DNA of 64,000 bases from positions 1-64,000 of the forward strand of contig CAIVGN010000234.1 in assembly GCA_903905455.1 (NCBI GenBank), in the 5' to 3' direction. The notes beneath the pieces are model-generated. The model worked only from the letters and a program-made list of their open reading frames with translations, was not told the DNA's origin and ran no database searches. Made by a program: the position numbers and the translations under genes. Source of the stretch: an uncultured Archangium sp. Its GTDB lineage: Bacteria > Myxococcota > Myxococcia > Myxococcales > Myxococcaceae. This document shows, one piece after another, positions 9,611 through 35,482 of this stretch. How positions within the stretch are numbered: the first letter of the stretch is position 1; every line of letters begins with the position of its first letter.

Positions 9611-10126
9611 ATGTCGCTCGCGTTCATCGTTGCGTTGACCCTCGCCGCGGAGCCCGCGCCGGTCGAAACAGTGCCGCAAGAGCCTGTCGCGGAACGGGTT
9701 TCCCTGTCGGACAACCAGGCCCGGTGGGTGGGCTTCGGCATCGGGACCACGTTGCTGGGCACCGGGGCGGCGTTGGGGGCCTGGCTCGACCGGGGCGGCA
9801 CGTTCGGGCAGGTCAGCGCGATCACCGCGGGGGCGCTGGGTACGGCGGTGCTCGCCGCGGGGGTGTCGGCGCTCATCGGGTCGTTCATTTGGCCCGCGTC
9901 ACGGCCTGGGGACAGCACCGGGGAGGCCATCGTCAACGACACGTTCCGGTTCATCGCCATCGGGGTGCTGTCCATGGTGGCGGGGGTTGCCGGGCTGGCG
10001 GTGGGCGCGGTGGCGTCGGGGTTCCTGTCGGTACCGCCGGGGACGCAGCGCGGAGTGCTCGGAATGGTGGGCGGCGGGGTGATGGTCGCGACGTCGGTGA
10101 CGGTGTTGATCATCGCGCTGCAGTGA
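9611..10126 (+). CDS. Small multi-span membrane protein, function unknown
   Basis: A 171-residue protein with an N-terminal signal-like helix (MSLAFIVALTLAAEP), a proline/glutamate-rich linker, then four glycine/alanine-rich hydrophobic segments (about 45-65, 75-100, 115-140 and 150-171). No family was recognised. The ATG at 9611 fits a signal peptide; longer in-frame starts overlap the divergent gene and look non-coding. It ends just before a large inverted repeat that separates it from the convergent metalloprotease-like gene. Confidence 0.65.
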   Translation: MSLAFIVALTLAAEPAPVETVPQEPVAERVSLSDNQARWVGFGIGTTLLGTGAALGAWLDRGGTFGQVSAITAGALGTAVLAAGVSALIGSFIWPASRPGDSTGEAIVNDTFRFIAIGVLSMVAGVAGLAVGAVASGFLSVPPGTQRGVLGMVGGGVMVATSVTVLIIALQ

Positions 10127-10190
10127 GCGCGGGAGACTTCGACGGGAGGTTTTCGTCTCCTGCGATCGGCACAGGCCGTGTGTTGGTTGG

Positions 10191-10245
10191 GGTGCCGGGG
10201 TTCGCCCCAATCCCTTCCTTTCCCCCCGGGGAAAGGGGAGCGCTC
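10191..10245 (+). repeat. Left core arm of the inverted repeat
   Basis: Fifty-five bases pairing with 10565-10619 with a single mismatch (T at 10201 against A in the partner read in the same sense). It contains a 9-bp palindromic stem at 10219-10238. Confidence 0.9.
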
Positions 10246-10564
10246 GCCGCGCGGGCCAGACGGGATCCAGAGGGAGACGGGACGTGGCCTCGATCTGCAG
10301 TAACGCTCGCAGCGCAGGACGCAGACGCTTCTTCTCGATGGTCTTGGAATGCGCCGGACCCACCGCCCAGGCAGCGACATCTGACGTCCCGCAGTGGCTG
10401 CCGAAGGGCAGCAGCAGCCGTTAGATGCTGCTGCTTCAGCGCCGCGCGTCGCCGTCCACGAAAACCGTCGAGGGCCGACGGTGGATCAACCCCCACCGAC
10501 CGTTCCTGAACATTGAGGCCTTGCCCCATTCGACTCTGAATCCCGTCTAGCCCGCGCGGCAGAT

Positions 10565-10619
10565 GAGCGCTCCCCTTTCCCCGGGGGGAAAGGAAGGGAT
10601 TGGGGCGATCCCCGGCACC
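10565..10619 (-). repeat. Right core arm of the inverted repeat
   Basis: Reverse-complement copy of 10191-10245. Similarity continues inward after a 4-base indel (10541-10560 against 10246-10265, one mismatch) and outward to about 10672. Confidence 0.9.
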
Positions 10620-10676
10620 CAAACCCAGAGACGACCGCTGCCGATCGCAGGAGACGCCCCCCCTCCCATCAACGCC

Positions 10677-11543
10677 TCACCGCGGCCCGTACAACGTGCC
10701 CTCGAGCCGGCGCCCCGGCTCACCCTCCGTGTCGCGCACGAACGTCACGAACTCCCGCTCCACCTCGCCCAACGATCGCCCAAACGACGTCGCAAACGCC
10801 CGGGTGAAGCTCGTGCCGCGCCCCGCCGCCTCCACCGCGTCCGCCAACCGCACCACCGCGTCCCCCCGCACGTGCGTCGCGAGGTACTCCACGAACAACG
10901 CCCCCATCACCTCCCCGGCATAAACGAACTGCGGCGGGCGCTGCTCGTCGCTCGAGCGCCGAAAGTTGCGCAACAGGTACGCCACCTCGTCCCCGGTGAA
11001 CGACGCCATGGTCCGCGCCGCGTCAGCGAGGTGCCTCGACTCGCGCCCATACGCATCGCCGATGACCGTCGCCTTCCCCTCCTCGAGGTACGTGGGGATC
11101 GACTCCATCGCGTCGCCGGCCTCCCGGAAGTCCTGCACGTGGGAAAGCTCGTGCGCGAGCGTGTTCTCGTCGTCGCGCGTGGTGCCATGCAGCACCCGCT
11201 CCGGCATCACGAAGGTGTCCTTCCCCGTGGTCACGCCCGCAATCGACCCCGTAGCGTCACCCGTGAACTGGGCGAAGGCCGGCGCCGAGAGCACCGCAAT
11301 GGTCAACGTGCGCCGAAGCGGCCCCTCGTCGTCCCACCGCTGCGTCTTCACGTCGCTCTTCCACGCCCGCTCCACCCGCGCGACCAACGCCTTCGCGTCC
11401 GCCGCCGACACCGGCCGGTCCGACACCACCCGAACCTGCGCATCGTGAAAGTCCTCCACCAACCCCGCCCACCCCACCCGCCCCATCGCCGTCACGTGTC
11501 CCGCCTCCTGCTGGCCCGCGAAAGTGCGGGCCCCACCACCCAC
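10677..11543 (-). CDS. Peptidase MA-like putative zinc metalloprotease
   Basis: A 288-residue protein whose centre contains THE zincin motif HELSHVQDF (HExxH) followed about 20 residues later by YLEEGKAT, where the glutamates could supply the third zinc ligand, as in gluzincins of the peptidase MA clan. The N-terminal part is mixed alpha/beta. No signal peptide is evident, unusual for this group, so either the start is wrong or the protein is cytosolic. GTG at 11543 has GAGG five bases upstream; an in-frame ATG at 11486 is the alternative. Its stop abuts the large inverted repeat. Confidence 0.62.
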   Translation of the reverse strand: MGGGARTFAGQQEAGHVTAMGRVGWAGLVEDFHDAQVRVVSDRPVSAADAKALVARVERAWKSDVKTQRWDDEGPLRRTLTIAVLSAPAFAQFTGDATGSIAGVTTGKDTFVMPERVLHGTTRDDENTLAHELSHVQDFREAGDAMESIPTYLEEGKATVIGDAYGRESRHLADAARTMASFTGDEVAYLLRNFRRSSDEQRPPQFVYAGEVMGALFVEYLATHVRGDAVVRLADAVEAAGRGTSFTRAFATSFGRSLGEVEREFVTFVRDTEGEPGRRLEGTLYGPR

Positions 11544-34651: not shown

Positions 34652-35482
34652 ATGACCACGCCGTCCATCACCCTCGCTGGCGCCACCGTCGGCCCCGGCC
34701 ACCCGCTCTTCGTCATCGCCGGCCCCGACGTCATCGAGGCCGAAGACTTCGCCTTGCGCCACGCGAAGCGGCTCAAGGAAATCACCACGAAGCTGGGGCT
34801 GCCGTACGCCTTCAAGTGCAGCTTCGACAAGGCCAACCGCACCTCCATCAACTCGTACCGCGGCCCGGGCCTGAAGGAAGGCCTGCGGGTGCTCAAGCGC
34901 GTGAAAGAGGAGATCGGCGTCGCCATCCTCACCGACGTGCACGACATCACCCAGGTCGCCGCGGTGGCCGAGGTCGCGGACATCATCCAGATCCCCGCGT
35001 TCATGTCGCGCCAGACCGACCTCATCGCCGCGGTGGCGAAGACCGGCAAGGGCGTGAACATCAAGAAGGGCCAGTTCATCGCGCCCAGGGACATCGGACA
35101 CCAGGCGAAGAAGGCCGTCGACTCGGGCAACGAGAACGTGCTGGTCACCGAGCGCGGCGCGACCTTCGGCTACAACAACCTCGTGGTGGACATGCGCGGC
35201 TTCGCGCAGATGCGCGAACAGGGCCTCGTGACCTGCTTCGACGCCACCCACTCGGTGCAGCTGCCCTCGGCCGGTGACGGCGAGACCAAGGGCGAGCGCA
35301 AGTTCGTGGGCCTGCTGGCGCGCAGCGCCGCCGCCGCGGGCATCGACGCCCTCTTCACCGAGGTGCACGAGAACCCCGACAAGGCCCTGTGCGATGGCCC
35401 CTGCTCGCTGACCTTCGAGCTCTTCGAAGAGACGCTGCGCGACGTGCTCGCCATCCGCCGCGCCCTGGGCCACCAGCAGTGA
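34652..35482 (+). CDS. kdsA: 3-deoxy-8-phosphooctulonate synthase (KDO-8-P synthase)
   Basis: A 276-residue enzyme condensing arabinose 5-phosphate with phosphoenolpyruvate to KDO-8-phosphate. Conserved motifs: FKCSFDKANRTS, SYRGPGLKEG, TDVHD, PAFMSRQTDL, NIKKGQF, GYNNLVVDMRGF, FDATHSVQLP and ENPDKALCDGP. The residue that is cysteine in metal-dependent and asparagine in metal-independent enzymes is aspartate here (D26, in IAGPDVIEA), while the other ligand positions (His in ATHS, Glu in TEVHE, Asp in CDGP) are kept. Its TGA overlaps the kdsC GTG. Confidence 0.95.
   Translation: MTTPSITLAGATVGPGHPLFVIAGPDVIEAEDFALRHAKRLKEITTKLGLPYAFKCSFDKANRTSINSYRGPGLKEGLRVLKRVKEEIGVAILTDVHDITQVAAVAEVADIIQIPAFMSRQTDLIAAVAKTGKGVNIKKGQFIAPRDIGHQAKKAVDSGNENVLVTERGATFGYNNLVVDMRGFAQMREQGLVTCFDATHSVQLPSAGDGETKGERKFVGLLARSAAAAGIDALFTEVHENPDKALCDGPCSLTFELFEETLRDVLAIRRALGHQQ

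Follow-up and report, generated by a model that had tools for sequence, protein, structure and literature searches.

The 64-kb stretch of DNA analysed here (the window) comes from a draft genome of the Myxococcaceae (8.6 Mb, 251 contigs, 70% G+C), and the closest named relatives of one protein that it encodes are from Archangium metagenome assemblies and other Myxococcaceae. Within the window two convergent genes are separated by a gap that is wholly occupied by a non-coding near-palindrome of 542 bp (positions 10135-10676); the plus-strand gene ends at 10126, 8 bp from the element, and the stop of the minus-strand gene lies at 10677. Both ends of the element were set by alignment of the repeat family to which it belongs, where conservation falls at the outer G of GGCTTCGA, and the family termini read GGCTTCGATGGGAGG...TCTCCTGCGATCGGCA. 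The original prediction, a near-palindrome of ~535 bp at 10138-10672 filling the complete intergenic region, was correct to within a few bases.

The left arm (type A; 10135-10286, plus strand) and the right arm (type B, with an extra ATCT and inverted relative to the left; 10520-10676, minus strand) form a terminal inverted repeat and score 174.3 and 179.8 bits, respectively, with R1, an arm covariance model built from 36 arms. Their outer segments (10154-10245 and 10565-10656; 92 nt) are 91% complementary, and the inverted similarity continues inward at 77% over 64 bp (10246-10309 and 10497-10560). Alignment of 10154-10656 with its own reverse complement gave 72% identity (E 1e-73) and confirmed the predicted core, ~55 bp inside the palindrome that differ by one base between the halves. 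A conserved terminal motif, CGTCTCCTGCGATCGGCA, is present in each arm (10154-10171, plus strand; 10639-10656, minus strand). Each arm also contains two hairpins, H1 (CCTTTCCCC CC GGGGAAAGG with an outer T-A pair) at 10215-10239 on the plus strand and 10571-10595 on the minus strand, and H2 (GCGC...GCGC) at 10240-10252 and 10554-10570 on the respective strands; in the right arm H1 was located by stem search and covariation and H2 by covariation. The 9-bp stem CCTTTCCCC..GGGGAAAGG, which had been predicted for each arm, was matched twice in the window against 0.04 matches expected. The central part (10287-10519) comprises more diverged inverted halves with a hairpin at the centre, and is non-coding, having 1-base indels among copies and no Pfam match.

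Searches of the same genome with the arm and with the whole element returned many copies at ~77-94% identity. The terminal 18-mer CGTCTCCTGCGATCGGCA occurred 57 times in 40 places (up to two mismatches), compared with seven matches to the reversed pattern at a laxer threshold of up to three mismatches. Fifteen copies are full-length with both ends (479-545 bp; pairwise identity 82-93%, mean 88%), four are truncated and interior to contigs (one of them detected by a longer terminal pattern only), and a further 18 are cut at contig ends and may represent the halves of 9-18 elements. The proposed search for further copies of the arm has thus identified a dispersed family at about 31-40 places, the exact figure being uncertain owing to the 18 contig-end pieces. 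In three miniature copies of 142, 128 and 112 bp (L124:1531-1672, L122:1489-1616 and L123:1483-1594) little is left except the ends of the two arms, joined back to back; these copies may have arisen by internal deletion or may be forms that move on their own.

A second dispersed repeat family of ~280 bp, with the hairpin GACTGACGGACTC...GAGTCCGTCAGT, was observed at L231:5011-5290 (contig C238, about 35010-35290) and in other places of G000, with ~14 long and numerous short matches. Some of its copies lie directly against truncated members of the first family (C238:34974, C238:46222 and C107:24218), an arrangement that would follow from insertion into or next to them.

The original prediction had itself raised the possibility that the arms are an assembly artefact, produced by read-through inversion. 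Such an origin might be thought of in a draft of 251 contigs where many copies lie at contig ends, and the repeat does break the assembly (18 contig-end copies). However, the arms differ by at least 9%, the copies differ by 7-18%, and the flanks are unique at more than 20 interior loci. Because the copies are diverged and their flanks unique, an artefact is excluded for practical purposes.

Across 36 arms, the ten H1 pairs and four H2 pairs were formed in 99.4% of cells. Double changes were found at four pairs (U-A to A-U, U-A to C-G, U-A to G-C and G-C to C-G), three of them within H1 and the G-C to C-G change within H2 (8 of 36 arms). There were 21 double-change cells, compared with 3.6 in shuffles, a test that is inflated by the kinship of the copies, and with none in six slid controls, which kinship does not affect. 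Similarity was 83.5% between the two arms of a copy and 82.8% between arms taken from different copies (11 copies), so that there is no sign of the long palindrome being maintained, and a full-length cruciform under selection was rejected. Thus it is the local hairpins, rather than the long palindrome, that look conserved in the alignments. The original prediction of a cruciform or structured RNA is therefore borne out for local structure, through hairpin covariation, and not for an extruding 535-bp cruciform under selection. Its further suggestion, that the near-identical core reflects recent copying or gene conversion between the arms, is unsupported by the same arm comparison, and the core is conserved family-wide. 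The copies combine, mosaic-like, blocks that exist in a small number of variants, some of them common to left and right arms, suggesting that exchange takes place among copies of the repeat.

Folding of the transcript, as had been proposed, gave a z-score of -20.5 relative to shuffles for the whole strand, as any inverted repeat folds in this way, and 0.14 for a single arm. The covariation would be equally expected from RNA hairpins, single-stranded DNA hairpins or symmetric protein sites. A terminator search of the plus strand yielded two weak matches with mixed pyrimidine tails and no strong U-tract (0.5 expected), including a terminator-like hairpin at 10185-10222 that faces transcription of the left gene. 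Searching Rfam 15 with the element gave sub-threshold matches only, none above the gathering score. No coding signal was detected in the element by alignment of the copies or by Pfam, and a coding origin of the arms, whose protein-like frames read 'SKTIEKKR' and 'TKTVEGRR', was ruled out by the 1-base indels among copies and the absence of a Pfam match.

The copies show a preference for gene 3′ ends and convergent gaps. Of their flanks, 57 were usable; 37 of these adjoin a gene's 3′ end (P 0.017), with a median distance to the stop codon of 17 bp, and for the remaining 20 the median distance to a start is 72 bp. For the 18 copies with both neighbours known, seven occupy convergent, seven unidirectional and four divergent gaps. 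In the 64-kb window, convergent gaps account for 6% of the intergenic sequence by length and for 20% of the gaps by number. Measured against this background, which was drawn from that one window with a simple gene caller, the excess of convergent gaps (7/18) has a P of 6e-5 by length and 0.05 by number. In six of the seven convergent cases the gap remaining without the element would be 6-36 bp. This bias can arise either from targeting or from the loss of harmful insertions.

These observations bear on a model in which the repeat is an immobile gene-end element, such as a bidirectional terminator, that ordinary recombination has duplicated and selection has retained. While the enrichment in convergent gaps and near stop codons, the conserved hairpins and the weak terminator-like match are all consistent with this model, four of the 18 copies lie in divergent gaps and seven in unidirectional ones. 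The model is also difficult to reconcile with comparisons between species. A copy on contig C29 lies between acyl-CoA dehydrogenase and enoyl-CoA hydratase genes, and in two sister genomes the same gene pair is separated by gaps of 58 bp (G004) and ~100 bp (G003), both without the element. Likewise, the G004 orthologue of the gene whose stop is at 10677 in the window has a different convergent neighbour, 11 bp from its end, and the element is missing there too. Since the sister genomes have these sites without the element, the copies at the compared loci were most likely acquired in the lineage of the present genome, and a gain of more than 30 copies in one lineage needs a mechanism of spreading. 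An immobile gene-end element is accordingly improbable. In a third genome, G005, the C29 gene pair encloses a VapB antitoxin-like and PIN-domain gene pair (L254:751-1448), so that this gap took different inserts in two species, the repeat here and a VapBC-like pair in G005.

The family appears to be confined to this lineage. BLAST of 59 related genomes, five of them of the same genus, returned no copy of the repeat, the exact terminal motif had no occurrence in the GTDB contig collection, and no plasmid relatives were found. The non-autonomous element envisaged in the original prediction is backed by the ~31-40 diverged copies with different flanks and by the empty site in sister species. Target-site duplications, for which it had proposed to look, were not found; at 18 copies and lengths of 2-10 bp there was no excess over shuffled pairs. 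Pfam assigned no transposase either to the two neighbours in the window or to the 28 genes lying nearest to 14 other copies. A search of the draft genome with the terminal patterns (up to three mismatches) for an autonomous partner returned the known copies, scattered weak matches and a 50-bp end remnant beside the second repeat family, and no larger element with the same ends, which could hide at contig breaks. Because target-site duplications, an intact same-ended element and a neighbouring transposase are all absent from these results, the argument for mobility is drawn entirely from the distribution of the copies, by which it is well supported. The mobiliser may have been lost, may be hidden at a contig break or may be of another type than those searched for.

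Under a classical MITE model, the repeat would have arisen from an insertion sequence by internal deletion, and a DDE transposase supplied in trans by an intact insertion sequence would recognise its terminal inverted repeats. The bacterial MITEs ERIC/IRU, Correia/NEMIS and RUP are likewise dispersed, mainly intergenic and non-autonomous, with terminal inverted repeats and strongly base-paired transcripts (PMC2229807). The present repeat shares the terminal inverted repeats, the non-coding sequence and the dispersal, its miniature copies (112-142 bp) retain the ends only, and it is lineage-restricted. In contrast, these MITEs are ~100-200 bp or less and A+T-rich, mostly with 5′-TA-3′ ends and target-site duplications (PMC2229807), whereas this repeat is 542 bp and G+C-rich and has neither TA ends nor a target-site duplication. 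The absence of duplications at 18 copies, the lack of a same-ended autonomous insertion sequence in the draft genome and an inverted similarity that spans most of the element rather than just its ends all argue against such an origin, which we regard as possible but doubtful.

Small palindromic repeats provide a second comparison. REP units are 20-40 bp long, and in them an unpaired tag (GTAG or CGTC) adjoins a stem of 5-13 bp (PMC3733652; PMC3116915). Most of them are located next to the 3′ end of a gene, in gaps of the convergent or unidirectional type (PMC3733652). REP dimers, BIMEs and REPINs of the GTAG and CGTC super-families (PMC3733652; PMC3116915) are likewise high-copy, intergenic hairpin units that are often oppositely paired, and likewise lie within ~20 bp of the 3′ ends of genes, where the gap is convergent or unidirectional; in its placement at 3′ ends the repeat resembles the published REP pattern (PMC3733652). 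A REPIN-like element, in which a Y1 (RAYT-type) transposase mobilises an inverted pair of REP-like hairpin units in single-stranded form, would fit this position, the inverted pairing, the covarying local stems and the absence of target-site duplications. However, the arms exceed 150 bp, several times the length of the tagged 20-40 bp REP unit, and no GTAG or CGTC tag adjoins a stem as it does in REPs; instead, CGTC lies ~60 bp outside H1 and ATCCCTT precedes H1. Moreover, the draft assembly of this genome gave no match to the Y1 transposase family (PF01797), for which six of 14 control genomes were positive. A REPIN/RAYT identity is therefore unlikely. The terminal inverted repeat families of TIRYT transposases (PMC3733652) are likewise long, partly self-complementary inverted repeats, dispersed singly or as dimers away from any transposase gene; they differ in their GGGGWSAS motif, which is not exactly matched in the repeat (GGGGAGCG), and no Y1 transposase was found in this genome. 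The best reading is that the element belongs to a new family of dispersed palindromic intergenic repeats, MITE-like in form and REP-dimer-like in placement, that fully fits neither definition.

A relative with a single arm was detected outside the genus. The arm covariance model found three matches in G018, a genome of another genus of the family (E 1e-7 to 8e-4), that span nearly the whole arm and include both hairpins. They belong to a repeat of ~314 bp whose homology is confined to one arm (71.5% over 123 columns, E 6.5e-12); its only palindromic part is its own 22-bp hairpin. There are three clear copies of this repeat, a contig-end piece and two short matches, and both complete copies (L284, L285) fill convergent gaps, a few bases from each stop codon. 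The one-arm relative supports an ancestral one-arm unit that was turned into an inverted dimer in the Archangium genome. The palindrome is therefore likely to derive from such a unit by inverted dimerisation, a direction of change that we infer, and two opposing copies of a genomic repeat, one of the origins first proposed, are supported as its likely source.

Taken together, the element is probably a copy of a dispersed, non-coding, non-autonomous palindromic repeat, an inverted dimer that has multiplied and been kept at 3′ ends, where it would contribute hairpins to transcript ends. An ancestral unit with two short hairpins would have become an inverted dimer, as the palindrome and the one-arm relative suggest, and this dimer would have multiplied to about 31-40 places in the lineage, consistent with the copies and the empty sister site. 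Copying may have been aided by an enzyme encoded elsewhere, and survival would have been mainly at gene 3′ ends and in short convergent gaps, where nothing gets broken. Judging from placement and covariation, the arm hairpins most likely enter the 3′ ends of both neighbouring transcripts, where they would end or protect the mRNA, making a role at transcript ends plausible. More tentatively, the repeat could represent a distinct class of large palindromic mobile repeats in the Myxococcaceae, having neither target-site duplication nor Y1 transposase, targeting or being retained at convergent ends, and acting as a bidirectional structured 3′-end element derived from a one-arm unit; we consider this broader proposal rather improbable.

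A limited literature search on myxobacterial or Archangium repeats found no description of the family, which adds an undescribed and unusually long member to the small palindromic repeats of bacteria. The repeat explains part of the fragmentation of this genome into many contigs. With a dimer here, a one-arm relative in another genus and empty sites in sister genomes, it offers a comparison for how repeats duplicate, move and affect gene ends.
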